Assembly: GCA_031082005.1 (NCBI GenBank)
Contig: JAVHLR010000001.1
Coordinates: 377,251-441,250, forward strand
Direction of reading: 5' to 3'
Source of the DNA: Patescibacteria group bacterium
GTDB taxonomy: Bacteria; Patescibacteriota; Patescibacteriia; 2-12-FULL-60-25
Length of the DNA: 64,000 bases
The notes under the pieces are model-generated. The model saw nothing but the letters and a program-made list of their open reading frames with translations. It was not told the origin of the DNA and did not search any database. Numbering within the stretch: the stretch's first letter is position 1; every line of letters starts with the position of its first letter. Of the stretch, positions 5,399 through 55,446 are shown piece by piece. The position numbers and the translations under genes are program-made.

Positions 5399-7555
5399 AT
5401 GCGTAAATTTATTACCTTCTTAAGCACAGCTGCGATGGTCATCTTGCCGCTGTGTGTGTCTTTCTCAATGCCGGCTCCCGCCCAGGCGGCTTCGGTCGGT
5501 CTAATTAAAGGCCCTTACGACACCGTCTATTGGCTCTCATCCAACGGGAAACGCTATGTCTTTCCGACGTATAACACGTTTTTTAGCTGGTACGGCTATT
5601 CATCACCGGCTATCCAGCAGTTGAGCCTGGACCAGCTTGGTACGATCACCATCGGCGGAAACGTAACGTATAAGCCAGGCGTCCGCCTAATTAAAGTCAC
5701 GACTAATCCCAAGGTCTACGCCGTCTCCCGCTACGGTGTGTTGCGTTGGATCACGAGCGAAGCTATAGCCACCCAACTCTATGGCGCCAACTGGGCGCTG
5801 ATGGTCGATGATCTGCCTGATCCGTTTTTCGTCAATTACAACATCGGCGCCGACATCAACAACGCGTCTGATTTCAATCCGACCGAGCAATCCAACTCCG
5901 TCACGACGCCCGATGATAATATCGGGACGGCACAGCCCACTTCACCGACGAACCCGACGCAAAATGTCGGTCCGACAGCCCCGGTCGTTACTGCGCCCGT
6001 TTCCAACCAAATCTTGACGAATTATCCGCGGACGCTGACGATCAGCTGGAGCAGTAACGTTCGACGCCATTACGTCGAAGTGCAGTGCGATTTCTGTGGG
6101 ACAAGCGCTGCTTGGTCGTATGTGAACTTTTCGGCAAATACAGACAACTACACTAATTCCGTTGTGACGACTGCCCTTGCTGGAGATAACCAGTTCCGCG
6201 TCCGCGTCAAAGCCATCGATGAGAGCAACCGTGAAACTTGGTCGAATTACGTTTATTTCTCCTTCAAGACATCGGCAGCATCATCCGGTCCGGCCGTTCC
6301 GACAATAACTTCGCCCACCGCCAACCAGATTTTCACCAACTATCCCCGAACTCTGACCGCTCAATGGTCAAATGACGGTGCGAAGAAGCACACCCTTGAA
6401 GTCGCTTGCGACTACTGTTCATCGGTAACGAACATGTACAGCAATCCGTCCTACTACGTCGCTGACAACTACGCTACCACATACGCCATCCCAGCCTTGG
6501 CAGGGGATAACACGTTCCGCATCCGCGCCAAAGCGACGAACGACAGCGGCGTCGACAGTGCTTGGTCGGATTACGTCTACTTCAGCTTCAAGACTGCGCC
6601 TACTGCTCCAGCTGCCCCGACCATCACCTCGCCATATTCCAACCAACAGTACACGAACTACCCGAGAACGCTCACCGTGACTTGGGCGAACGATAACCAG
6701 CTCAAACATAACGTCGAAGTCGCCTGCGATTACTGCGTTTCAGTCTCAAATCCATACAGCGGCGCCACGACGTATGTCTCGAATAATTACGCCATGTCAT
6801 ACGCTTTACCCGCCTTGGCCGGAGATAATACCTTCCGCGTCCGCGTTCAGGCTGTTGATGCGAGTGGTGTGGCTGGTGCCTGGTCCAACTACGTCTACTT
6901 CAGCTTCAAGACTCCCTCGGGTCCGTCCGCGCCTACTATAATTTCTCCTGTCGCTAACCATATCTTCACGAATTATCCTCGTTCGATCGACGTTTTCTGG
7001 TCTAACGACAACCAGAAATCACACACTGTCGAAGTGGCATGTGATGTGTGTGGGACAGGCGCAATGTGGTCTTCGGTCGCTAGTTACTACGCTGATTCTT
7101 ACGCTACTGGCTATCAGGGCATCTCTTTGGCAGGCGACAACCAATTCCGCGTGCGCGTCAAGGCAACGAACGCAAGCGGCGTGACCGGACCGTGGTCAGA
7201 CTGGGTCTATTTCAGATCCAGTACTAGCATTTCCTCTGCTCCGAGAGCGCCATGGATTACAGCGCCGTACAGTAACCAGATCTACACTAACTATCCACGT
7301 ACGCTAACGGCCAAATGGTTCAATGACACCGCAAAGAAGCACACTCTCGAAGTCGCTTGCGACTATTGCAGCTCGGTGACGAACATGTACAGCAACCCGT
7401 CATATTATGTCGCCGACAATTACACGACGAGTTATGCGCTTCCAGCCTTAGCTGGCGACAACCAGTTCCGCATTCGCGTCAAAGCCACGAACGAGAACGG
7501 CGTCGACAGTGTCTGGTCGGATTATGTGTACTTCAAGTTCAAGACCGCTCGATAA
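5399..7555 (+). CDS. Secreted surface protein: CPR-type N-terminal module plus five Fn3-like repeats
   Basis: 718 residues. The signal peptide has cleavage likely after AQA (about residue 30). Residues 33-160 form a module (motifs GKRYVFP, TFFSWYG, IGGNV, PKVYAV, LRWITSE) that recurs in the protein at 61727-63538. A Thr/Pro/Asn linker leads into five tandem repeats of about 103 residues. Each has SPxxNQ...TNYPRTL near its start, a CDxC pair in the middle and LAGDN-FRxRVKA...WSxYVYF at the end, a layout like fibronectin-III beta-sandwiches. Repeats 2 and 5 are nearly identical around the Cys pair, so recent duplication is likely. No transmembrane anchor or sorting signal is seen at the C-terminus. 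Probable role: adhesion or cell-surface structure (inference). Confidence 0.85.
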   Translation: MRKFITFLSTAAMVILPLCVSFSMPAPAQAASVGLIKGPYDTVYWLSSNGKRYVFPTYNTFFSWYGYSSPAIQQLSLDQLGTITIGGNVTYKPGVRLIKVTTNPKVYAVSRYGVLRWITSEAIATQLYGANWALMVDDLPDPFFVNYNIGADINNASDFNPTEQSNSVTTPDDNIGTAQPTSPTNPTQNVGPTAPVVTAPVSNQILTNYPRTLTISWSSNVRRHYVEVQCDFCGTSAAWSYVNFSANTDNYTNSVVTTALAGDNQFRVRVKAIDESNRETWSNYVYFSFKTSAASSGPAVPTITSPTANQIFTNYPRTLTAQWSNDGAKKHTLEVACDYCSSVTNMYSNPSYYVADNYATTYAIPALAGDNTFRIRAKATNDSGVDSAWSDYVYFSFKTAPTAPAAPTITSPYSNQQYTNYPRTLTVTWANDNQLKHNVEVACDYCVSVSNPYSGATTYVSNNYAMSYALPALAGDNTFRVRVQAVDASGVAGAWSNYVYFSFKTPSGPSAPTIISPVANHIFTNYPRSIDVFWSNDNQKSHTVEVACDVCGTGAMWSSVASYYADSYATGYQGISLAGDNQFRVRVKATNASGVTGPWSDWVYFRSSTSISSAPRAPWITAPYSNQIYTNYPRTLTAKWFNDTAKKHTLEVACDYCSSVTNMYSNPSYYVADNYTTSYALPALAGDNQFRIRVKATNENGVDSVWSDYVYFKFKTAR
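5981..7555 (+). repeat. Five tandem in-gene repeats of about 315 bp
   Basis: Units start near 5981, 6299, 6617, 6932 and 7250. They are conserved at protein level, and the second and fifth are also close at DNA level. Each carries one Cys-x-x-Cys pair. Confidence 0.85.
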
Positions 7556-44232: not shown

Positions 44233-44430
44233 TTATTCCCTCCTTTTTTGTCATTCCCGTCCCGGTGCTCTGACCGGGATAAATTCCGACGGGAATCCAG
44301 GCTACTGGATCCTGAATCGAGTTCAGGATGACGAGGCATTTGTCTTTGCGAGGAGTATATACAAAACCGTAGGGCGACGCGGCAACCTTTCCATAATGTA
44401 AGATTGCTTCGCTCCACTCGCAATGACGGA
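44233..44430. repeat. Composite dispersed repeat filling the gap after the helicase gene
   Basis: The 305-bp gap holds GTCATTCCCGTC...GACGGGAATCC, then the GGATCCTGAAT...TTCAGGATGACGAGG block, then GTCTTTGCGAGGAG...GGGCGACGCGGCAA...AAGATTGCTTCGCT...CTCGCAATGAC. The last two blocks are in opposite orientation to those at 35.6 kb. No gene seen. Confidence 0.75.
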
Positions 44431-44462
44431 TCATCTTTCTCTTCATAGGGAAAATAAATTGA

Positions 44463-44492
44463 AAACGCACCAGGCCGAGTGGCCTAGTGCGT
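44463..44492 (-). terminator. Terminator of the kinase-nucleotidylyltransferase gene
   Basis: A 12-bp stem (44465-44476 with 44481-44492) with loop GAGT. Read as minus-strand RNA the single irregular pair becomes U-G, and the stem is followed by TTTTC, so it belongs to the minus strand. Confidence 0.75.
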
Positions 44493-44502
44493 CTTGTGTA
44501 GT

Positions 44503-46824
44503 TCATTCCGGCACGAGCCGGAAAAAGATAGTTTCGTCCCCGTCCGTGAAGCTCATCCGCTCATAGCGCAGACGACGCCTCCGTCCGTCGCGAAGTCGTA
44601 GTGGTGTTTCCCGCTCGTAGGGTTGGACGATGGTCGCTCCCAGGGTTAGAGCGATGACTTCCTCGGGCAGGTCGTACTTCCTGACTCGGACGTCGAGTGG
44701 AGTCCAGTCCGCACCAGCCACGGAAGCGACCACTTTTCCCGGTAGGAATTCGACCGGCGTTTCGGCATAACGCTCCCGGATCTCTCGGAAAGTCATGATC
44801 TGCTCGACGCCTTCGGCCGCATACAGCCGTGATGCATGCTCATCCTCGCGCTTGATCGCGTCGCGCAGCGTTTGGCCCCATGAACGCACCTCGTATTCTT
44901 CGTTCGGCGTACCGAAAACGGATTTTTGGTCCAGTATCATGAGGCCGGGAAAGATATCACGGATTGTCACATTCGACGACGCGACTGCCACGACGTCCTC
45001 ATATCCGGGCATCATAGCGAAGTGCAAGCGGTGCAGCTCGTCCGTTCCGAAGTACGGCGTAAGCATGAAGCTGAACGATGCTGGGTCGTAACCCCGCGCC
45101 AAGAGCGATCGCGCCACCATCTTCATCACGATCCATTTGGGCAACGGATCACGCTCGGTGATTGTGTAGGAACGCTGAAGCGAAATCTTGACGTGATACC
45201 CCAGGTCGAGCAATCGGCTGATGTAGTCGATGTGGCCGTAGTGGGGGATGCCCATGCGCGCCGGGAAGAGCACGGTGTTCTTCTCGCGACGATTCTTAGC
45301 CGCACGCCGCGTGAGTTTGAGGTTCTTGGGCGCTTCCGTTTCCGGGAACAACGCATCAGCCACCTCGTTGGCATCCGGTCGGCCTCGTGGATCCTTCGCC
45401 AGCATTTCGCGGATGAGAGTGAGTCTCTCGTCGGCGAAGTCGATTTCCGGATGATGCTCGTACGGCATGAGTGCATTGGCTAGCGAGAACTTGAGCACGG
45501 CTTGCTCGCGATGTTCGCCTTTATGCTCGAGCTCGTCGCACGTCACGAACGGCAGTCTGCCATATAGTAGTTGGTGGAAGAGCAGTCCGAGCTGGAAGAT
45601 GTCGCTTGCGGTGGACGCTTTGCAGTGTAGCGTGACCTCTGGCGGCGCGAACTTGGGGTCCAAGATGTAGCTCACGACTTCACTTCCGTCGTCCACGTCC
45701 GGTTCACGTCGGCTGGCATTGAAATCGAACAGGCTGACTCCTTCGTGACTGACCATGACGTTATCCGGTCGCAGATCGAGATACAGAATCCCGCGCAGGC
45801 CCGGACGGCAGTGCAGACTGGCTAATGTCTCGGCAATCGCACCGACCACGGCGCAAGCCGCGTCCTTGTCGAGCAACTGCCCTGGGTGGACGTAGTCAGC
45901 CAACGACTGTCCGTACACATACGACCTGATCATGAACTCCGTGCCGTCGGCGAGTTTGAATTCGCCGTAGTGACTTGGCACGTCAGCGATATCGGTAATC
46001 AGCGGGAACAGATTCGCCTCCTCATCGAGGTTCGCGCCTATCCGCTCTTCTTCGTGCGTCAGTACTTCCTTGAAGACCTTGATGATCCCGTCGGAATCGA
46101 GCGCGAGATAGATGTTGCTGCAACGCGTTAGGCCGTCTTTGCCTTGGGCTAGCTGCCGCAAGATGCGGATTCCGTTCTCGTCGGCATAGCGGCGGAACAG
46201 GCTGTCCACTTCGTCACGTCTGTTCGGAGGTGTCGGGACGACGAACTCACGGCCTTCGGCGATGGCATGGAGCAGCTCGCGGCGCACTTGCGGATAGTGC
46301 GGATCTTCATCCGCTGCGCGGACGACCTCATCCCAGAACTTCGTCTGGTCAGGATACTCCTGTGCTACCAGTATCTTGAGTGCGGCGACATCCTTGGGAT
46401 CGACGAAAGACACGCCAGCTTGCTCGTCTCGATAGACATCAAACCAGCGCACTCCGCAGCGCATGAACCATTCCGCGAAGTCCGGGACCGAAAGGCTTTC
46501 GATGCCCGTGTAGAGCCCGATCCGGCGGATTTCCTGCACAGCTTTGGTTTCGCCGAAGGCTCGTGCGATCTCGAGGAGGTCCTTGAGCACGTCGAAGCGC
46601 TTCAGCTTGCAGAATTGTCGGACGGCTGGAATGAGATGTCGTCCGTCGCCAGAGAAGCAGGCGAGATGCGCATACGCCGCGACTTCGATCGCGTATTTTT
46701 TTGCACCGTCATCGCCTTCGATCGTATCGGCGGCGCGGTCGATGGCTTGCCACATGGCCGGACCCTCAAGTCCGACCGCTGCAGAGATGACTTTCCTCAA
46801 CACGGTCGTCTTGATATCTGACAT
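44503..46824 (-). CDS. Protein kinase fused to an HxGH nucleotidylyltransferase
   Basis: 773 residues, no membrane helix. Residues 1-210 are helical and unrecognised. Residues 220-490 form a protein-kinase fold with all key residues: Lys in IIKVF (249), Glu in the C-helix, catalytic loop YLDLRPDN (Asp350, Asn355), DFN replacing DFG (Asp367) and PPE (396). Residues 515-690 resemble NMNAT/cytidylyltransferase domains: a TVLFPARMGIPHYGH strand-loop with HxGH at 528-531, an ITERDP stretch, and GQTLRDAI near 650 in the place of the SxTxxR motif. A further about 80-residue beta-rich end is unassigned. The frame is open to 46863 but AAGGAT precedes ATG 46824. Last gene of the six-gene cluster. Fusion of these two domains is not one I know. 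Confidence 0.8.
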   Translation of the reverse strand: MSDIKTTVLRKVISAAVGLEGPAMWQAIDRAADTIEGDDGAKKYAIEVAAYAHLACFSGDGRHLIPAVRQFCKLKRFDVLKDLLEIARAFGETKAVQEIRRIGLYTGIESLSVPDFAEWFMRCGVRWFDVYRDEQAGVSFVDPKDVAALKILVAQEYPDQTKFWDEVVRAADEDPHYPQVRRELLHAIAEGREFVVPTPPNRRDEVDSLFRRYADENGIRILRQLAQGKDGLTRCSNIYLALDSDGIIKVFKEVLTHEEERIGANLDEEANLFPLITDIADVPSHYGEFKLADGTEFMIRSYVYGQSLADYVHPGQLLDKDAACAVVGAIAETLASLHCRPGLRGILYLDLRPDNVMVSHEGVSLFDFNASRREPDVDDGSEVVSYILDPKFAPPEVTLHCKASTASDIFQLGLLFHQLLYGRLPFVTCDELEHKGEHREQAVLKFSLANALMPYEHHPEIDFADERLTLIREMLAKDPRGRPDANEVADALFPETEAPKNLKLTRRAAKNRREKNTVLFPARMGIPHYGHIDYISRLLDLGYHVKISLQRSYTITERDPLPKWIVMKMVARSLLARGYDPASFSFMLTPYFGTDELHRLHFAMMPGYEDVVAVASSNVTIRDIFPGLMILDQKSVFGTPNEEYEVRSWGQTLRDAIKREDEHASRLYAAEGVEQIMTFREIRERYAETPVEFLPGKVVASVAGADWTPLDVRVRKYDLPEEVIALTLGATIVQPYERETPLRLRDGRRRRLRYERMSFTDGDETIFFRLVPE

Positions 46825-46879
46825 TTTTAGTATCCTTGTGAAAGGCCAAACGGACTTAGGCATGTCTCTTGCGAGGCAT

Positions 46880-46901
46880 GACCAACACGTTGGTCTTTTT
46901 T
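46880..46901 (+). terminator. Terminator-like hairpin on the opposite strand
   Basis: GACCAA, loop CACG, TTGGTC, then six T on the plus strand. No plus-strand gene ends here, so it may be an orphan or limit antisense transcription into the cluster. Confidence 0.5.
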
Positions 46902-46923
46902 GTCATTCGAATTGACGAGCTGA

Positions 46924-47014
46924 TTGTCATTGCGAGGAGCGCATACAAAACCGTAGGGCGACGCGGCAATCTTGCTTCAATGTAAGATTGCTTCGCAAGC
47001 GCTCGCAATGACGT
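46924..47014. repeat. Dispersed palindromic repeat inside the cluster
   Basis: GTCATTGCGAGGAGCGC...GGGCGACGCGGCAATCTT...AAGATTGCTTCGCAAGCGCTCGCAATGAC. It separates the kinase-fusion gene from the vWA gene at 47090. Confidence 0.75.
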
Positions 47015-47043
47015 TTAATATTTTAAAAACGAACAATAGAGAA

Positions 47044-47073
47044 GGGCCGCACCGCGAGTGTGCAGTGCGGCCC
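47044..47073 (-). terminator. GC-rich hairpin after vWA gene 2
   Basis: GGGCCGCAC/GTGCGGCCC, 9 bp perfect, 17 nt after the stop codon. T-run weak. Confidence 0.5.
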
Positions 47074-47089
47074 CTTGTCGAGTCTAGCA

Positions 47090-48136
47090 TCAGGAGAAGA
47101 CGATCTTGATCATCTTTTGGATCTCGTCTTCCGGCGCCTCGAGGTACTTGCCGAAGCGACGAATCGCTTCTCTGGCGTTCATGTCGGTGTTCGCGCCGAA
47201 AATCGGTTCCTTGAGCCACTTCTCGTACAACGTCATGAGGAACGCCTGCACGGTCTGGTTCCCCTGGTGGCGCGCGATGAGGAAGAGTAAGGCGTTGCCC
47301 ACGATGCCGCAGCGGTGCTCGTGCGAAGGGATCGTCGAGAGGTCGATGAGGTCGAACGGCAGGCGCTTCTTGTCCGTGATGAACTTCTTCTGCAGCTCGG
47401 CATAGTCGCGCTCCGCTCCGCTTCCGATGACCTCGAACGAGCGATAAGTCTCGTGGACGCGTTTGAGCGAGTCATGCCAGTCGCGGCCGCGCGGACATCC
47501 GTCGTCGCCACGCATGCCCATGCCGTGCGCGACCACGTCGGTCACCAGGTAGAGCCGTCGATCCTGTACGTGCCCGAAAGGCAGATCGCAGGCGTCCCAC
47601 AGGGCACACTCGATCGCCTCGGGCTCATCTCCGCCGCTGGCTCCGACGACGTGGCGGATCGAAGAGTGGAGGATCTTGTCGCCGGTCTCGTCTGGTGCCA
47701 CGTAGTCCACAGCCTGCCAGATACGCGATCCGTCGCAATGGTCCGAGAAGTAGACGAAGCAAATGCGTGACCCGGGGTCGATCGCCTTGAGCACGGCCAG
47801 CAGGTAGCCGGACGAACTCTTGAGGTGGTTCGCGATCTTCTCGTTGCTGCCCGAGTTGTCGATGAGTACGACGTGCACGCGCTCGGCTTTCTCGTCCGGT
47901 GCCTTGACCTGAAGATGGACGAGCGACTTGTCGTAGACTTCGCGCTCGTTACGGACTTCGCGCGGCTTGGCGCTCTTCGCCACCACCGCTTTTCTGTCTG
48001 TTTCGAGACGCCGTGCGCGATCCGCACGCGCCTCATCGGCGCGCCGTCGTTCGGCTTCGGTCTCGCCGGTGCTGCGGTATGCCTCGAAGTCACGCTCGAC
48101 GCTGCCGGAATATCCACGATAGCTGTTTCCGCTCAT
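47090..48136 (-). CDS. vWA-domain protein 2 of the cluster
   Basis: 348 residues, soluble. A charged helical N-terminus rich in Arg/Glu (about 15-65) precedes a von Willebrand A domain. The metal-ion-dependent adhesion site is intact: DNSGS (93-97), GGDEPEA as the second loop, and the Asp of YLVTDVVAHG. The C-terminal about 100 residues are helical. vWA proteins of this kind bind partner proteins through Mg2+ and often work beside AAA ATPases, kinases or chaperones. GGAGAG 7 nt upstream of the ATG. Confidence 0.85.
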   Translation of the reverse strand: MSGNSYRGYSGSVERDFEAYRSTGETEAERRRADEARADRARRLETDRKAVVAKSAKPREVRNEREVYDKSLVHLQVKAPDEKAERVHVVLIDNSGSNEKIANHLKSSSGYLLAVLKAIDPGSRICFVYFSDHCDGSRIWQAVDYVAPDETGDKILHSSIRHVVGASGGDEPEAIECALWDACDLPFGHVQDRRLYLVTDVVAHGMGMRGDDGCPRGRDWHDSLKRVHETYRSFEVIGSGAERDYAELQKKFITDKKRLPFDLIDLSTIPSHEHRCGIVGNALLFLIARHQGNQTVQAFLMTLYEKWLKEPIFGANTDMNAREAIRRFGKYLEAPEDEIQKMIKIVFS

Positions 48137-48210
48137 GTCACTCTCCTAAATGGGAAGGGGCGAGTAGGCTTCGGCCCAAATATTCGATCAGGTCGAATCC
48201 TTGGGGGAAG

Positions 48211-48233
48211 GGCGGAGAGTCAGTCTCTCCGCC
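48211..48233 (-). terminator. GC-rich hairpin between cluster genes 4 and 5
   Basis: GGCGGAGAG/CTCTCCGCC, a perfect 9-bp stem with 5-nt loop, 23 nt after the stop of the upstream gene. No T-run, so more likely an attenuator or mRNA stabiliser. Confidence 0.45.
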
Positions 48234-48255
48234 GAGGTGGGAAGGTACGAAGGGG

Positions 48256-49560
48256 TCAGAAGCTGCGGAAGTCGCGTTCCGGCTCGGCGTCGCTGCCGCC
48301 GTTGCGCTTGCGCGGCGAGGCAGGAGCCGCTGCTTTCATCGCCTGGAGCTTGTCCCACGGGATGTTGATCCCGCGGTTCTGCAACGCGATGATGTAGTAG
48401 GGGAGCTGCTCGGTCGAGACCTCGCCTGCTGCGAGCTTCATGACCGCGAGCACGTAGCTGACCAAGTCACGTTCAAGCCTCACATACTCGGCCGTGAGAC
48501 CAGCGCCGAGCTTCTTCAGCATCTCGTCGCGATTGGCGGCGCCGATGGCGGCGGGAAGCTGCGGATCCTCGAGCACCTTCTTGATGCGCAAGGTGTCGTG
48601 CGCCAGGGCGCGGGCTACTGGTATGCCCGTGCCGGCGAACATCTTGTTGAAGTTCTCGATGACCGTCGAAGCCGAGTCGAGGACGGGAGCCGTATCCGGA
48701 TGATCCATCATGCCGGGCATCATGGCTGCCCCGCCGCTCATCATGCTGGCGAAGCCAGCCATCATAGCCGCCGGGTTGTTCATCCGAGTCTGCCACAGCT
48801 CCTGCCAGCCGGTGAGCTTCTGCTGGAAGCTATCGAGCAGAGCCCAGAGACCACCCATGCGGTCGAGGAGCTTCCGCTTGCGCGCCTCGCTCATGAAGTG
48901 CCCCGGGACGCCCATGGCCTGCAGGACTTCGCCGTAACGCCGTTCCGCGACCTGCCTCTGCAGAGTGTAGTAGGCATCGCTGACGGGTTCTTCGAGCGTC
49001 TCGGCGTGTTGCTCCATGAGCGCCACGAGCTGATCCGGCAGGTCGTACACTCCGAGCTGCTTCGCTAGGAGGACACGTAGAGCAGCGTTGACTTCGGTCG
49101 CTCCGACCTTGGCCACCCCGCCGACGCGCAGCGCCGAGAGGAACGTGTCATCGCTCGGCGGTTCGGGCAAGAGACCGACCATACTGATCGCCGAGGGCGC
49201 CGCTACCTTGGGGGTCGTCGGCTCCACCAGCTTCGGTGCCGCTGCGCCGCGCAAGTCCTTGATCGCCTTATTGAGCTTGACCGGCGGCACGCCGCTGAAG
49301 AGCCCACGGATCACATCGTTGCCGGCGCACTCCGGATCGGCGAGGGCTTCGAGACCTTCGTCGTTCGCATCGCCGACAAGCTTCTGGAGCTCGGTCGTGA
49401 CGGCGTCGTACTCTTTGCCGATGGACTTGGCGAAGGCTCCGACCTTCTCCTGCCACTTGGCAGAAGCTGTCGTCGCGGTGATCTCGGGTTTCGGAGCTTC
49501 GAGAACAGCGGGCAGTGTTGCTTCAGTCGTCGTTGCATCGTTGTTGGGCGTGTCTGCCAT
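48256..49560 (-). CDS. Unknown protein of the kinase/vWA cluster
   Basis: 434 residues, no family recognised. A low-complexity N-terminus rich in Thr/Ala/Glu/Pro (1-45) is followed by helical segments, a Pro-rich linker (about 110-135) and a mainly helical C-terminal half. The latter includes a Met/Gly-rich stretch (about 275-295) with the look of a hydrophobic flexible loop, and the tail is basic then acidic. No Cys pairs or nucleotide-binding motifs. AAGGAGAG lies before ATG 49560; the open frame to 49617 adds no plausible domain. Position between the PurA-like enzyme and a vWA protein suggests an adaptor or substrate. Confidence 0.7.
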   Translation of the reverse strand: MADTPNNDATTTEATLPAVLEAPKPEITATTASAKWQEKVGAFAKSIGKEYDAVTTELQKLVGDANDEGLEALADPECAGNDVIRGLFSGVPPVKLNKAIKDLRGAAAPKLVEPTTPKVAAPSAISMVGLLPEPPSDDTFLSALRVGGVAKVGATEVNAALRVLLAKQLGVYDLPDQLVALMEQHAETLEEPVSDAYYTLQRQVAERRYGEVLQAMGVPGHFMSEARKRKLLDRMGGLWALLDSFQQKLTGWQELWQTRMNNPAAMMAGFASMMSGGAAMMPGMMDHPDTAPVLDSASTVIENFNKMFAGTGIPVARALAHDTLRIKKVLEDPQLPAAIGAANRDEMLKKLGAGLTAEYVRLERDLVSYVLAVMKLAAGEVSTEQLPYYIIALQNRGINIPWDKLQAMKAAAPASPRKRNGGSDAEPERDFRSF

Positions 49561-49613
49561 GACGGTAACTCTCCTTCTGACGTTGGGAACGAGCACGTTG
49601 CGGAATTGGCTTT

Positions 49614-49645
49614 CCATCGGCTAAGTCCGCAGGCAAAACCGATGG
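49614..49645 (-). other. Leader hairpin
   Basis: A CCATCGG/CCGATGG 7-bp stem with an 18-nt loop lies between the proposed internal promoter and the start of the 434-residue protein gene. Confidence 0.4.
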
Positions 49646-49647
49646 GC

Positions 49648-49677
49648 AATCTAATCACAGCCCGAGGCCTTCGTCAA
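49648..49677 (-). promoter_or_regulatory. Possible internal promoter of the cluster
   Basis: On the minus strand TTGACG, an 18-nt spacer and TAGATT, in the 157-nt gap between the PurA-like gene and the next gene. Confidence 0.45.
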
Positions 49678-49717
49678 GCGATCAAACCGCTCGAAAAGCC
49701 TCTGTATCCAGCCACTT

Positions 49718-51082
49718 TTAGGCTGCTCGGCTGGCTGACGCGGAACGTTCGAACGTCTCATCGGCCGTCGGCCCGGTAGAGCAGACGGTGACCGGCGTCT
49801 GGAGCGCATGCTCCAAGCGTTCGATGAACGCGTCCCGCTCGGTCGACCAGGTTTCGTATTGCGCTCGGGTCGTCGTCAGTTGCCGAGTGATCAGCTCCTG
49901 ACGCTGCAGGCTCGGAGCGTCGGCATGCTCGATGCCGACAATCCTGTTTCCTCGTGTTGCGAAGAGCGTCTCGTCCGGGCTTTCCGCTGTGTAGGCCGAG
50001 CAGACTCGCGTATGCTCGTCCAAGCGATCAAGATGCGTCAGCACGATCTCATCGATCCCACCAAGCGCCTCGATGGCGTACTTGATGGCGATAGGGTCGA
50101 GATGGCCGATACGGAAGTCTTGCTGCCAGGTGTCACACTTGTTGTGTGGCTCCGGACGCAAAGTCTGGTCAAGCGCAGCATCCTCTGTCATGAACGGTCC
50201 TGCGCCGTGCCGCGTGGCATATGTGCGCATGACGCCCATCCGCGTGATGCCGCCCATGAATCCGATCTGCTCCAACATCCGTTCCGCGTTGCGGAAAGTC
50301 ACGTCTGACCGCGTGCAGTGGGGGAAGAAACCGTGGACTTCGTCCAGCAGCACTCCCTGCGCTCCCTCGAACACGGCCACGCCTTCGCGCTGCATGATCT
50401 CGGTCAGATACGCATCATCGACCGGTGTCACGAGTCTGATGAAGCGGCTGAACCATTCGGCACAGCGGATGCTTTCGCTCGGATCGTTGAGCACATCTAG
50501 CATGAGCTGGGCGTCGTCGTTCTCCGGGATGCCGATAAGCTTTGCTGCCTTGTCGCGGTTCATCTCTTGGACGAAGCGCAGCTTGCGTATCAGTACGTTC
50601 GGATTCTCCAGATCCCGGACGTACATGACCGCGTTGCCTTGTTCCAGCTTGTCTTGCACGGTCTCGAACACGCCGAGTCCGCAGCTGCCGTGGCGATCGC
50701 GCCCGCGCGACATTTCGCGCAGACGGTTCACGGCGATCTGGAACGGCGTCGTCACCAGAGCATCGCGCTCCACGGTCACGCGGCTGAAGATGTCATGGAT
50801 GCCGTACTTGGCGAGGTGCATGCCTTCAGACAGGAACGCCGTGGGATTCACCAACATGAAGCGCGAGAGGTGCGTCCGCACGCCCGGCACGAAACTGGCG
50901 CTGCCGAACTGCTGGAAGGCATGCTGTCGTCCGTCGGCCGTCACCACGTTGTGATGCGCGTTGCTCGCGCCGTTGTAGCGCACGACAGTGTGGACCGGCT
51001 TGGTTCGCGCCAAGTAGTCGACTGTCTTGCCTTTGCCTTCGTCTCCGTTCGCGATCCCTGCGATCAAGATGGCAGATGACAT
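49718..51082 (-). CDS. Divergent adenylosuccinate synthetase homologue
   Basis: 454 residues with the PurA fold. The GTP/catalytic loop NGDEGKGK (12-19) keeps the catalytic Asp14, and SNAHH (40-44) keeps the His equivalent of E. coli His41. VFEGAQG (237-243), TRHGAGP (290-296), THLD (349-352) and STGP (435-438) are further conserved. But the region that should read T-T-G-R-x-R-R and bind aspartate is DTWQQDFRIG (317-326), and the IMP-side TTGRGIGP is HGSCGLGV (131-138). It is therefore probably a GTP-dependent ligase with a changed nucleotide or amino-acid substrate. AAGGA precedes ATG 51082. Its place in a kinase/vWA cluster, not a purine operon, supports a special role. Confidence 0.85.
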   Translation of the reverse strand: MSSAILIAGIANGDEGKGKTVDYLARTKPVHTVVRYNGASNAHHNVVTADGRQHAFQQFGSASFVPGVRTHLSRFMLVNPTAFLSEGMHLAKYGIHDIFSRVTVERDALVTTPFQIAVNRLREMSRGRDRHGSCGLGVFETVQDKLEQGNAVMYVRDLENPNVLIRKLRFVQEMNRDKAAKLIGIPENDDAQLMLDVLNDPSESIRCAEWFSRFIRLVTPVDDAYLTEIMQREGVAVFEGAQGVLLDEVHGFFPHCTRSDVTFRNAERMLEQIGFMGGITRMGVMRTYATRHGAGPFMTEDAALDQTLRPEPHNKCDTWQQDFRIGHLDPIAIKYAIEALGGIDEIVLTHLDRLDEHTRVCSAYTAESPDETLFATRGNRIVGIEHADAPSLQRQELITRQLTTTRAQYETWSTERDAFIERLEHALQTPVTVCSTGPTADETFERSASASRAA

Positions 51083-51107
51083 GATCCGTTCCTTTGCGAG
51101 AATGGAA

Positions 51108-51136
51108 GACCGGGACACCTGATCGGCGTCCCGGTC
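51108..51136 (-). terminator. GC-rich hairpin between cluster genes 2 and 3
   Basis: GACCGGGAC/GTCCCGGTC, a perfect 9-bp stem with 11-nt loop, just downstream of the vWA 1 stop codon. Without T-run; partial attenuation is possible. Confidence 0.45.
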
Positions 51137-51149
51137 GGGGAGAGTAGGG

Positions 51150-52076
51150 TTAGAGCGGAGTCACGCGCGAGCGACGTTTGCGGCCGCCTGCTTGCGGTTC
51201 CGCGTTGTCTTCGGTTGTGGCGTTTGCGACGTCGCCGCGTTTGGCTCGCTCGATAGTTCCGACCCAGTTCGCGATGATCTCGCTCACCTTGGAAGGATCG
51301 TGCATCACGATACAGCGTTCGGATCCGAACAGGTCTGCCCAACGGCGCTGAACCTCATTCAAGTAGCTGTCTTCGTTGCCGCCGATGCTGGTCGGCAGGA
51401 TGAAGAGCACTTCGAAGCGCTCTTTCACCTCGCGTACGATCCGACCCAGCGCGATGTTGTCGTCCAGGTCGTCGCCGATGTAGTCCTTGACCAGGCGTCG
51501 ATCCACTTGGGCATACGGCAGCTCGTCGCCGATGATCACGAGGCAGCCCTTGTGCTGGCGCTTCTCCCAGCAGTCGATGCTGGTGTGCCGCGCCATGGCG
51601 TAGAGCGCCAGGTCATAGGACTCGTGGCCGTTGCCGCCGCCCTTGCCCTCGAGGAAGAGCTGTCCGAGGCAGTCGTCGATCTTGAGGTCGGTTTCCCACT
51701 CGCCGACTTGGACGGGAGCGATCTCTCCCATGCCCGCGTCGCCGATGGCGCCGATCATCACCTGCGGATCCTTGACGCCGTGGCGCAGCAACGAACCCAT
51801 CAGTTGATTGAGGTTCTGCTGCAGCACCCGCGGGATCTTGCCCATGGAACCCGTCTCGTCGAAGAAGACCGTGATGGCGAGCGACTCCGGGAACTTGTCG
51901 CTGTCGCGACTTTCCCGCAGAGGCTTGCGCCGCAAGTCCATGGCCGGGTGACAGTGTCGCTCGCTCTCTGCGGCGCTCTGCATCTGACGATGGTGGACGA
52001 ACGCGTCCACACCCTGTTGGTCGCGCTTCGTCTGACGTTGCTGGAAGAACTTATTGCTCCAGGTATCCTTTGCCAT
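51150..52076 (-). CDS. vWA-domain protein 1 of the cluster
   Basis: 308 residues, soluble. An N-terminal basic helical segment (1-60) is followed by a vWA domain with MIDAS DETGS (73-77), a Gly-rich loop GGGNGHES, and the Asp of LVIIGDELPY. The tail is Arg/Lys-rich. The sequence differs strongly from the other vWA protein, so it is not a recent duplicate. The sequence before the ATG is GGAAAAGGAA. It starts 27 nt after the pseudokinase, the closest pairing in the cluster. TerY-type proteins are the nearest described comparison. Confidence 0.85.
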   Translation of the reverse strand: MAKDTWSNKFFQQRQTKRDQQGVDAFVHHRQMQSAAESERHCHPAMDLRRKPLRESRDSDKFPESLAITVFFDETGSMGKIPRVLQQNLNQLMGSLLRHGVKDPQVMIGAIGDAGMGEIAPVQVGEWETDLKIDDCLGQLFLEGKGGGNGHESYDLALYAMARHTSIDCWEKRQHKGCLVIIGDELPYAQVDRRLVKDYIGDDLDDNIALGRIVREVKERFEVLFILPTSIGGNEDSYLNEVQRRWADLFGSERCIVMHDPSKVSEIIANWVGTIERAKRGDVANATTEDNAEPQAGGRKRRSRVTPL

Positions 52077-52103
52077 TTCCTTTTCCCTCTTTCTGCAGCG
52101 GTT

Positions 52104-53246
52104 TCATCTTTCGTCGTCATCCACGAGCCGCAATCTCGGCCGCATCTCGAACTTGTGATAGCGCGGCGGGCCGTAGTTGTTCCGCATGAAGCCGTCGAAT
52201 TCGCGGCGCAGCTCCCAGGCGCTATCCGGACGCTTGGCAGGCGCTGCGATGAGGCAGCTCCTCAAGAAGTTCTGCAGATAGTCCGGCACGCTTTGCGGTA
52301 GCCGATTGGTCCGCATGTCGCCGTTCAGGATGTACACCATGCACTTGGCGGCCATGTAGATGTCGGTCGCGGGCGTAGGCGATTCCTTGTCGCTGACTTC
52401 CATCGGATAGAAATCCTCGTAGTCGTCATGCTTGAGGCTGATGCGCTCGAAAGTCCGCATCGGGTCCACTGCCGCGCCGTTCCAGCCGATGATCTTGGCC
52501 GCATGGTCCGTCGGTTCGATCAGGAAGTTGCAGGGCACTATACCGCCGTGGATCACGAGATGACTGTGTGCATAGCCCAGCCCCTCGAGCAGACGGTTGA
52601 AGATCCAGACAGCAGTCTGGAATTCCACGCCCCGCGGGAAAGCCTCACGGACCTCCTCCAAGCTCCTGAAATTCGTCAGGTCTTCGAGCAGGACACCGTT
52701 CAGCATCCCTTCATCTCCGCAATCCGCGGTGAAGGCGCCGAGCATGTGCGGCAAGTAGCGCCGGAAGTGGCTGTGGAACGGATCGTCCGTCGTTTGGTCA
52801 GCCCCCATCCTGTTGAGGACGAAAGCCTCGCGTTGGATGAACCCGTTGCAGCCTTCTTCGCAAGCGAGTCTTGCTGTGCAAGAACGAGTTTCGCCGTCGA
52901 GCGTCCGTCGGCCTGCCAGCATGTCGCAGAGCGGATCCTGCCACAACACCCGTCCGAGCGAATACTCGCCCGGGAAAGCTGTGATGATCTGTTGCGGATC
53001 CGCCGGTTTGCGGTCGACAGAGGCTCGAGGCAAGGTGAGCTCGTTCAACTCGTTTTGGGCCTTGGCGTAGAGCAGGTCGAGCCGCTGTTGGAGCCCAGGC
53101 GTATCCACGGGAAGCACCAAGGAGAATCCTCGGTATTTCGTCTGTAGATCGCACAACCGTTCTTCGTAGGTTGTGCTGGTGGGCGAGCCGAAGAGTATCT
53201 CCGGATCGTCTTGGAACAGCAACGTCTCGATTCTGGGTTTCGGCAT
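52104..53246 (-). CDS. Pseudokinase-like protein, first gene of the cluster
   Basis: 380 residues. Residues 1-75 are helical and end LYAKAQNEL; the spacing recalls a degenerate J-domain without HPD. Residues 85-350 have kinase-fold organisation, but the catalytic residues are replaced: the beta-3 Lys position reads TARLA, the HRD loop is HGGIVPCN (233-240; His and Asn kept, Asp lost) and DFG is GWN (254-256). So it probably does not transfer phosphate but may bind nucleotide or the active kinase encoded at the other end. GGAAATG start context. The gene lies about 115 nt downstream of the cluster promoter. Confidence 0.75.
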   Translation of the reverse strand: MPKPRIETLLFQDDPEILFGSPTSTTYEERLCDLQTKYRGFSLVLPVDTPGLQQRLDLLYAKAQNELNELTLPRASVDRKPADPQQIITAFPGEYSLGRVLWQDPLCDMLAGRRTLDGETRSCTARLACEEGCNGFIQREAFVLNRMGADQTTDDPFHSHFRRYLPHMLGAFTADCGDEGMLNGVLLEDLTNFRSLEEVREAFPRGVEFQTAVWIFNRLLEGLGYAHSHLVIHGGIVPCNFLIEPTDHAAKIIGWNGAAVDPMRTFERISLKHDDYEDFYPMEVSDKESPTPATDIYMAAKCMVYILNGDMRTNRLPQSVPDYLQNFLRSCLIAAPAKRPDSAWELRREFDGFMRNNYGPPRYHKFEMRPRLRLVDDDER

Positions 53247-53348
53247 TTCCTGACCCCTTGGCTGATTCAGTTGTCTAAGGTGCTCATCCGTCTCCGGAGG
53301 AGCCGGCTAAGTTAACCATTTTAGCCGAGCTAGTCAAGAAACTGGGTG

Positions 53349-53369
53349 TGTCTTAATGACACTAAGACA
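53349..53369. promoter_or_regulatory. 21-bp palindromic operator candidate
   Basis: TGTCTTA, 7-nt centre, TAAGACA, a perfect inverted repeat overlapping the -10 and the predicted start site of the cluster promoter: the position of a repressor site. It contains TTAGTGT on the minus strand. Confidence 0.7.
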
Positions 53370-53395
53370 TTAAACCCGGCATAAAATATTGTCAA
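53367..53395 (-). promoter_or_regulatory. Main promoter of the six-gene cluster
   Basis: On the minus strand TTGACA, exactly 17 nt, TAATGT. Predicted start near 53360, leader about 115 nt. A weaker TTGACT-N17-TAACTT lies about 50 nt further downstream. Confidence 0.75.
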
Positions 53396-53417
53396 GTACA
53401 CACTAAGTAAGGGAGAT

Positions 53418-53700
53418 CGTCATCCTGAGCGATGGCCTATCAAAAAAATATATAACGGCGGCCGAGTCGAACGGATCTTCGAAATAAAATGGTATTTATC
53501 CTCCTACGCTCTCGGCAGCTGTTCCAATCTGAAGATCCCTCGTCGCTCCGCCTTCCCTCGGGATGACGTTAGTTTGTCTTTGCGAGGAGCATCGAATAAA
53601 ACCGTAGGGCGACGCGGCAAACTGACACAACGTGTCATCCTGAGCAAAGCGAAGGATCTTTGTAAGGCAACATTGCTTCGTTCCACTCGCAATGACGTTC
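53418..53700. repeat. Composite dispersed repeats between NrtR gene and cluster promoter
   Basis: The 465-bp gap (53247-53711) holds the promoter and operator, then repeat blocks: GTCATCCTGAGCGA, a GATCCCTCGTCGCTCCGCCTTCCCTCGGG stretch (53537 on), GTCTTTGCGAGGAGCATCG...GGGCGACGCGGCAA, GTCATCCTGAGCAAAGCGAAGGATCTT and CTCGCAATGACG. No gene seen. Confidence 0.7.
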
Positions 53701-53711
53701 CTGTAAAAACT

Positions 53712-54374
53712 TTATAACACGTCCGTATAGACCAATTTTCGCTGCTTGAAATGATAAAGCTGCGCCGGGCGATGCACGCCGCCTTTCTGCTTTTCACCCG
53801 AGGCATTGATCAGCCCTAAGGCCAGAATCTTTCGACGGAAATTCCGCTTATCTAAATCACGTCCTAAGATCGTCTCGTAGACCTTCTGCAGTTCTGTTAG
53901 CGTAAAATCCCGCGGCAGCAAACTCCAAGCGACGTTCGAGTATTCGAGCTTGCTTCTTAAGCGGTTGATGGCGGTTTCCGCGATCTGTTTGTGGTCATAA
54001 GCGAGCTTTGGCAAATCACTGGCCACGTACCACCCGATGTCGGAATATTTTGCGGCTGCTTTTAGTTTGACTTCAGAGGAGGGGAGTAAGGCGTAATATG
54101 CGACGCTGATGACGCGTCCGCGCGGATCGCGTTTTGGTGCGTCGAAAGTCGCGAGTTGCTCCAGGAATACATCAGATACGCCCGTCTCTTCTTTCAGAAT
54201 GCGCCGCGCCGCGTCCTCTGTCGTCTCGTTTTGGCTGATGAAACCGCCGGGAAAAGCCTTTTGCCCTTTGAACGGATCCTTATTCATGCCGATCAAGAGC
54301 ACTGAAAGCTCGCCATCCTTGATGCTGAAGATGACTGAATCCACAGCCACGCGGATATTCTGCATTTTTTCCAT
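53712..54374 (-). CDS. NrtR-type regulator (degenerate Nudix domain plus winged helix)
   Basis: 220 residues. The N-terminal Nudix fold has the box G-x5-E-x7-R-I-L-x-EE-x-G-V; the Glu of the REU element is Ile, so hydrolysis is doubtful. The C-terminal winged-helix (about 145-215: FTLTELQKVYETIL, NFRRKIL, RPAQLYHF) is the NrtR DNA-binding type. NrtR proteins sense ADP-ribose and repress NAD-biosynthesis genes. The near-consensus promoter puts the transcription start about 4 nt before ATG 54374, so that start is preferred to the longer frame. It lies directly upstream of the kinase/vWA cluster, on the same strand. Confidence 0.88.
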   Translation of the reverse strand: MEKMQNIRVAVDSVIFSIKDGELSVLLIGMNKDPFKGQKAFPGGFISQNETTEDAARRILKEETGVSDVFLEQLATFDAPKRDPRGRVISVAYYALLPSSEVKLKAAAKYSDIGWYVASDLPKLAYDHKQIAETAINRLRSKLEYSNVAWSLLPRDFTLTELQKVYETILGRDLDKRNFRRKILALGLINASGEKQKGGVHRPAQLYHFKQRKLVYTDVL

Positions 54375-54384
54375 ATTAGTGTTG

Positions 54385-54413
54385 ATAATACACGAAGTTG
54401 GGGCAAAAGTCAA
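54385..54413 (-). promoter_or_regulatory. Promoter of the NrtR-type gene
   Basis: TTGACT, 17 nt, TATTAT on the minus strand. The plus strand over the -10 reads TTAGTGTTGATAATACAC, a partial palindrome sharing TTAGTGT with the cluster operator. Confidence 0.75.
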
Positions 54414-55355: not shown

Positions 55356-55446
55356 GGAGAGGTACCCAAGAGGCTGAAGGGGGGAGATTGCTAATCTCCT
55401 AGGCGGGTCAAACCGCGCGAGGGTTCGAATCCCTCTCTCTCCGCCA
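55356..55446 (+). tRNA. tRNA-Ser (GCT)
   Basis: 91-nt class II tRNA with acceptor GGAGAGG/TCTCTCC, discriminator G, encoded CCA, a long variable arm and anticodon loop TTGCTAA. Confidence 0.95.

Follow-up and report, generated by a model that had tools for sequence, protein, structure and literature searches.

Protein kinases and von Willebrand factor A (vWA) proteins carrying a metal ion-dependent adhesion site (MIDAS) are found together in TerY-P-type triads, which are accompanied by PP2C and Ter genes. vWA proteins are also associated with a Nudix-helix-turn-helix (HTH) regulator, around a different core, in the ADP-ribosylglycohydrolase (ARG)-centred anti-ADP-ribosylation systems (PMC9503650). 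Regulons for nicotinamide adenine dinucleotide (NAD) metabolism are controlled by NrtR, whose mycobacterial operator is a 23-bp palindrome, GTTTTCGA-N7-TCGAAAAC (PMC6800001). Components of all these kinds are predicted in a cluster of six genes (g1 to g6) on a 64,000-nucleotide stretch (hereafter the window) of contig JAVHLR010000001.1, which belongs to a Patescibacteria group bacterium with a genome of 1.31 Mb in 7 contigs (G000). In order, the cluster encodes a pseudokinase, a vWA protein (vWA1), a homologue of adenylosuccinate synthetase (PurA-like), a helical protein, a second vWA protein (vWA2) and a protein kinase fused to a predicted nicotinamide mononucleotide (NMN) adenylyltransferase (NMNAT). 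It is proposed, tentatively and at a likelihood just short of even, that these genes form an NrtR-regulated accessory module of patescibacterial NAD metabolism, encoding a kinase/vWA-regulated complex that would process NAD nucleotides.

That the six genes constitute a real, co-inherited system is virtually certain from their recurrence in other genomes. The g4 protein, the bait that finds most system loci, matched 15 of 381 genomes of the same class and four genomes of another class, and the gene families were then mapped on the fetched regions. The mapping resolved two modules, found in about 20 patescibacterial genomes: module A, made up of pseudokinase, vWA1, PurA-like and g4 genes, and module B, made up of g4, vWA2 and the kinase-NMNAT fusion. 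All six genes occur together in four genomes (that of the window, G347, G381 and G223), module A in G186, G243, G247, G198, G209 and the four genomes of the other class, and module B in G001, G091 and G365; G365 has two copies, and G269 one, of a pseudokinase-vWA1-PurA-like triad that lacks g4. The named relatives are Candidatus Uhrbacteria and Falkowbacteria metagenome-assembled genomes. Since the same genes, in the same order and on the same strand, are shared with other families and with another class, the cluster is not an assemblage of chance neighbours, an explanation for which no supporting point was found and whose probability is practically nil. The first-pass annotation of this DNA had named co-occurrence in other genomes as the test of its cluster, and the proposal survives it, as the six-gene set recurs in three further genomes and four of the genes in several more. 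Its statement that the set could not be matched to a named system also holds: Pfam, NCBIfam, PADLOC and the open-licence literature contained no system matching the set, and NCBIfam and PADLOC scans of the six proteins returned only cross-matches to defence kinases (MAD6 and PD-T4-6) and one weak HerA match (g4). An earlier description elsewhere is possible; the gene set as a whole is apparently undescribed.

Several loci differ in composition from that of the window. In G001, which belongs to the window's genus, the PurA-like gene is reduced to a C-terminal scrap beside intact g4 to g6 (L012:1510-1596 / L015:9294-10600); this genome yielded no NrtR, and module A and NrtR appear to have been lost together. 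The two extra pseudokinase-vWA-PurA-like triads of G365 (L065:4514-8027 and L066:3012-7275), which accompany its module B locus, suggest triad duplication. A pyruvate-kinase-like protein of about 300 residues is encoded between vWA1 and the PurA-like gene in four loci (L031:6427-7407 and relatives in L030, L032 and L037) and is a possible extra component. A 416-kb predicted viral contig (L051:3815-12855) carries vWA2, kinase-NMNAT and g4 genes along with genes for a WGR-PARP protein and an HD-domain protein; a search of viral contigs with the vWA2 alignment gave no match. A Sulfidibacter match (L050) was rejected as a system locus, being kinase-only.

The real unit is larger than six genes, as nrtR and its operators belong to it. 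The nrtR gene lies directly upstream of the cluster and encodes a Nudix plus winged-helix regulator (NrtR_WHD, E=2.5e-27; NUDIX, 2.8e-15), and no other NrtR_WHD gene was detected in the window's genome; nrtR is the first gene of the unit in the window, G223 and G275. A 21-bp palindrome is common to the promoters of the NrtR genes of this class. An operator matrix was built from the nrtR promoters of G381, G223, G347 and G247, with the window and the system-gene promoters left out, and was run over the whole window. Of its three top matches, one falls in the nrtR promoter and two in the g1 promoter (Table 1); the fourth match scores 10.0. In the nrtR promoter the site overlaps the -10 box TATTAT (54390-54385). 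Upstream of g1, operator 1 covers the -35 box TTGACA (53395-53390) and operator 2 follows the -10 box TAATGT (53372-53367) closely, the two boxes being separated by a 17-nt spacer (TTGACA-17-TAATGT); such tandem sites, at -35 and past -10, would be positioned for a repressor. This promoter was read directly from the sequence and was not among the results of a consensus promoter scan. Operator 2 overlaps a 21-bp palindrome (53349-53369) that is unique in the whole genome and was at first read as the operator itself; when the nrtR promoters were compared, this reading gave way to operator 2, joined by operator 1.

Strong operator sites also occur in other genomes: upstream of g1 in G209, G223 and G247, upstream of g4 in G247 and in G347, where g4 heads the operon, and upstream of the ADP-ribosylglycohydrolase gene of G223. 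Among the ten genomes in which NrtR was not detected, nine have no strong site at the system. The cluster very likely belongs to an NrtR/NAD regulon. Separately, an NrtR-operator-like site is conserved in two genomes of another class (L059:2464-2484 and L060:2600-2620) in which no NrtR was detected.

Genes of NAD metabolism accompany the set in several genomes. In G381, the set belongs to one co-directional run, in which it follows nrtR and genes for an NMNAT-Nudix protein (NadM-like), an ADP-ribosylglycohydrolase, NAPRT, an NAD-kinase-like protein (weak match), phosphoribosyl pyrophosphate synthetase, an unknown 308-residue protein, a NadE-NadD fusion and a uridine-kinase-like protein; the last was not called a nicotinamide riboside kinase, being closer to uridine kinase. 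The NAD genes of G347 stand in the system run in a similar manner. Within about 25 kb of the set, G223 carries genes for NadE, NAD kinase, NadR-like, NadD-like and isochorismatase-family (nicotinamidase-like) proteins, ADP-ribosylglycohydrolase and NrtR. In G275, the PurA-like gene adjoins an NMNAT-NAD-kinase fusion, followed by NAPRT, nucleoside hydrolase and NadE genes, and in G381, G347, G365 and G247 nrtR itself adjoins NadE, NMNAT, NAPRT or NADK genes. System genomes contain about 12 strong NadE genes, five of them no more than about 12 kb from a system gene, where about 0.4 would be expected by our own estimate (about 32 kb of a genome of about 1.1 Mb counted as near, with loci not chosen blind). 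The pathway suggested by the first-pass annotation, regulated and leading to a nucleotide-type product, stands as regards a nucleotide-related, co-inherited system; the connection to NAD, through NrtR, its operators, the NAD genes and the kinase-NMNAT fusion, had been missed.

These neighbourhoods also bear on an alternative in which the set acts in anti-phage or stress conflict, a kinase/vWA sensing complex restoring or altering the NAD pool upon NAD loss or ADP-ribose release during infection, with NrtR as the alarm sensor. In keeping with this are the patchy distribution within the class, with relatives lacking the set, the weak resemblance of the kinase to MAD6 and PD-T4-6, the ADP-ribosylglycohydrolase genes adjoining the set in G381 and G223, the PARP gene near module B on the predicted viral contig, and the use of Nudix-HTH regulators and vWA proteins by ARG-centred systems (PMC9503650). 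However, no effector (nuclease, pore or NADase) is present within the six-gene set, no PADLOC system matches it, neither g6 nor g4 matched phage records and g6 did not match plasmid records, whilst the set of G381 is embedded among ordinary NAD biosynthesis genes. A conflict role is considered fairly unlikely.

The g6 protein contains a Hanks-type kinase at residues ~230-510 (Pkinase, E=6e-22 in Pfam) and the predicted NMNAT at ~525-700. The kinase keeps the residues of an active Hanks enzyme, with the lysine (K262/K265), glutamate (E282), catalytic aspartate (D363) and metal-binding aspartate (D380) invariant. The C-terminal part was modelled with AlphaFold2 (AF2) from 11 sequences at a confidence (pLDDT) of 87, and the 18 best fold matches to this model in the PDB are all NMNATs, with a TM-score of up to 0.82 to the archaeal enzyme. 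Within its HxGH domain (A5 numbering), R26, H31 and H34, which align with R11, H16 and H19 of archaeal NMNAT, are invariant, as is R157, whose pairing with R136 was made by motif rather than structural superposition. At the sequence level, a search of the C-terminus against the PDB gave no significant NMNAT match, and the scores for the domain are weak (TIGR00125, E=0.023; PDB profile match to 1ej2, E=1.3). The model points to a NadM-type NMNAT behind the kinase, and this domain is probably active.

The g3 protein is a clear member of the PurA family (PF00709, E=6e-63 in Pfam) and is encoded by the only PF00709 gene in the window's genome. Together with its relatives it forms one clade separate from canonical PurA (support 100/100), which retains the GTP site and D13, K16, H41 and D333 of the active-site map. 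The sole exception is a rearranged copy in G186, in which D13 and H41 are absent from the aligned N-terminus; in that protein (L029:13512-14936) the N-terminal P-loop segment (GFGDQGKGS) lies mid-protein, as if transposed within the gene. Elsewhere the pocket has changed. T129 is replaced by C, I or V and V273 by H in nearly all members, T300 by W in all and T301 by Q in all but one; no arginine occurs at 131 or 143 and almost none at 303; K331 is replaced, and N38 is exchanged for Q in most of the clade, though kept in the window's copy. The usual residues are intact in the canonical PurAs found in this class; in Escherichia coli PurA, T129, R143, R131, R303 and K331 bind inosine monophosphate (IMP) phosphate, aspartate and GTP.

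Could g3 nonetheless be an ordinary adenylosuccinate synthetase of purine synthesis? The family match and the preserved D13, K16 and H41 would allow it, but the replacement of T129, R131, R143, T300, T301, R303 and K331 as a set, with N38 in most, does not, nor does the scarcity of purB, since a search for PurB (TIGR00928) gave no match in G000 and a match in only one of 21 genomes searched; moreover, a canonical PurA is encoded separately in G381, G247, G269 and G209. This explanation is extremely improbable. Because the GTP-binding and catalytic residues are kept, the pocket residues are swapped and PurB was not found, g3 almost certainly works with GTP, though not with IMP and aspartate, and it very probably does not make adenylosuccinate. 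The hint of the first-pass annotation that it might do so is left unsupported by the loss of the aspartate- and IMP-phosphate-binding residues and by the lack of a PurB match in this genome. Whether its substrate is instead an NAD-type nucleotide is a possibility to which we give somewhat less than even weight.

Such a substrate is central to an explanation by plain NAD salvage, in which the PurA-like enzyme performs a GTP-dependent amidating or ligating step, e.g. on a nicotinate nucleotide, as a back-up to NadE or in its place, the kinase parts being simple regulators. The genome search of G000 found no clear NadE and no NAPRT, yet PurA-like and NMNAT genes are present there, and in G275 the PurA-like gene directly adjoins the NMNAT-NAD-kinase fusion. 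Set against this, NadE and the PurA-like protein are both encoded in G381, G347, G223, G243 and G275, and G001 has neither NadE nor an intact PurA-like gene. Salvage of this kind is regarded as unlikely.

The remaining four proteins resemble signalling or structural components. The g1 protein matches Pkinase weakly (5.8e-5, short of the cut-off), and its HRD and DFG aspartates are missing; across its family the catalytic HRD aspartate is lost in 16 of 17 members and the DFG motif is degenerate. No Pfam family scored above cut-off for g2, g4 or g5, and the vWA identity of g2 and g5 rests on their MIDAS motifs, as no vWA family exceeded the cut-off. In g2 this motif (DETGSM) is kept in nearly all of 15 relatives, and in g5 (DNSGSN) D93, S95 and S97 are invariant among six relatives of 39-76% identity. 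The AF2 model of g4 is all-helical (pLDDT 76.6). The joint presence of kinase and vWA proteins, here paired with nucleotide enzymes, had suggested a TerY-type system to the first-pass annotation, and a TerY-P-type chemical stress system with an added nucleotide-making module can be envisaged. It is very unlikely: Pfam scans of selected neighbours found no PP2C phosphatase and no Ter-family gene, and the kinase partner g1 is a pseudokinase.

For the NrtR-regulated accessory module, the following sequence of events is proposed. A rise in ADP-ribose, or a similar NAD breakdown product, would cause NrtR to release DNA, allowing the operon to be expressed. The pseudokinase, vWA1 and vWA2 would then assemble, with g4 serving as a helical scaffold, into a metal-dependent complex gating the g6 kinase, and this complex would control the attached NMNAT, which could convert NMN (or an analogue) and ATP to NAD or an NAD-like dinucleotide. 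Before or after this step, a nicotinamide- or purine-type nucleotide may be activated at an oxo or carboxyl group by the PurA-like enzyme with GTP and linked to an amine other than aspartate. As regards DNA, the NrtR step is well supported; the remaining steps are drawn from domain content. Gating by phosphorylation is possible rather than probable. It is improbable, though conceivable, that the PurA-derived ligase and the kinase-gated NMNAT make a new NAD-type dinucleotide or a modified nicotinamide or adenine nucleotide, a signal or cofactor set by phosphorylation and by ADP-ribose via NrtR.

A number of observations weigh against this scheme. Amongst solved structures, the closest to the window's NrtR are AraR (5bs6) and a Nudix protein (3gz5); because the NrtR family includes the arabinose sensor AraR, which is the nearer PDB relative, an AraR-like ligand is also possible. 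The agreement between regulator and operator is incomplete, with a strong site but no detected NrtR in G269, and no convincing operator at the system in the NrtR-bearing G198 and G365. Control by NAD is not universal, since in the other class module A stands without a nearby kinase-NMNAT gene, in genomes without NrtR. Besides g6, the window's genome contains a stand-alone NMNAT-like gene, so that its NAD could have a source other than g6. Finally, the g4 model found no fold match in the PDB or in a viral library.

The layout of the locus is given in Table 1. The first-pass annotation had placed six co-directional open reading frames correctly, and its domain reading is confirmed for g3 by PF00709, for g6 by Pkinase and for the HxGH domain by predicted fold; the pseudokinase reading of g1 agrees with the lost aspartates, and the vWA reading of g2 and g5 rests on their MIDAS motifs. 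From g1 to g6 the intergenic gaps are 27, 31, 100 (157 with the 434-residue g4 start), 119 and 226 nt, in line with the close spacing described for all but the last gene. Shine-Dalgarno-like sequences, also claimed, precede g1 to g5, with none at the listed g6 start. The 434-residue g4 start (49560) is preceded by AGAAGGAGAG, and an alternative g3 start, ATG 51082, has a better Shine-Dalgarno sequence than that listed.

Table 1. Genes, predicted operators and terminator-like hairpins of the cluster (window positions)
Feature	Position	Strand	Length or sequence	Description
g1	52104-53246	minus	380 aa	pseudokinase (Hanks fold)
g2	51150-52076	minus	308 aa	vWA protein 1, MIDAS DxTGS
g3	49718-51118	minus	466 aa	PurA-like GTP-dependent enzyme (predicted)
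g4	48256-49617	minus	453 aa; 434 aa from likely start 49560	all-helical protein (model)
g5	47090-48136	minus	348 aa	vWA protein 2, MIDAS DNSGSN
g6	44503-46863	minus	786 aa	N-terminal region, Hanks kinase, predicted NadM-type NMN adenylyltransferase, beta-rich C-terminal domain
nrtR	53712-54413	minus		first gene of unit; likely true start ATG 54374
Predicted NrtR operator, nrtR promoter	54376-54396		TTCGTGTATTATCAACACTAA	22.5 bits, best in window; overlaps -10 box
Predicted NrtR operator 1 upstream of g1	53386-53406		TTAGTGTGTACTTGACAATAT	16.4 bits, second-best; shuffle p<=0.010
Predicted NrtR operator 2 upstream of g1	53345-53365		TTAGTGTCATTAAGACACACC	13.8 bits, third-best in window
Terminator-like hairpin after g5	47042-47075	minus		number of such sites not above shuffles
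Terminator-like hairpin after g6	44462-44495	minus		number of such sites not above shuffles

A dispersed repeat occurs at each edge of the cluster and again in the g5-g6 interval (44329-44412, 46913-46996 and 53598-53697), the inner copy making up much of this wide gap, which measures 57-77 nt in several relatives. A tRNA-Ser gene (55356-55446), about 1 kb upstream of nrtR, is a possible integration landmark. Elsewhere in the window, an open reading frame at 5399-7555 contains tandem repeats of about 320 nt (6173-7548) and probably encodes a repetitive surface-type protein.

If the proposed scheme is correct, this would be the first system known to us in which a eukaryotic-like kinase-NMN adenylyltransferase fusion, vWA proteins and a neofunctionalised PurA are combined in an NAD regulon. 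The PurA-like clade would mark a branch of PurA with a new substrate, and the system would provide an entry point to the handling of the NAD pool in very reduced bacteria, here with a genome in which NadE and NAPRT are not detectable. In common with NrtR regulons, it has a Nudix plus winged-helix regulator, palindromic promoter operators of about 21 bp and NAD salvage genes in the regulon, to which kinase, vWA, PurA-like and g4 genes are added here, and its operator sequence differs (TTAGTGTTATNNANACACTAA). Like the bifunctional NadM and NadR enzymes, g6 would couple an NMNAT of NadM-type fold, with a conserved HxGH motif and the arginine aligned to R11, to a second catalytic domain, which is a Hanks-type protein kinase rather than the Nudix domain of NadM or the P-loop riboside kinase of NadR. 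The g3 protein shares its fold, GTP site and catalytic Asp13 and His41 with PurA and phage PurZ (to which it has a weak match, E=1.8e-10), whereas it forms its own clade and its IMP-phosphate and aspartate pockets are replaced (W300, Q301, H273 and, in most, Q38). Kinase and MIDAS vWA proteins recall TerY-P-type triads; unlike these, no PP2C or Ter genes were seen among the scanned neighbours, and a pseudokinase, an NMNAT and a PurA-like protein are present. The Nudix-HTH regulator, vWA proteins and, at some loci, ADP-ribosylglycohydrolase are held in common with ARG-centred systems, but there is no ARG in the six genes or the scanned window neighbours and no phosphatase, and the core appears biosynthetic rather than deconjugating. 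As a whole the set matches none of these systems, and it shares parts with NrtR regulons, NadM and NadR, PurA and the kinase/vWA triads.

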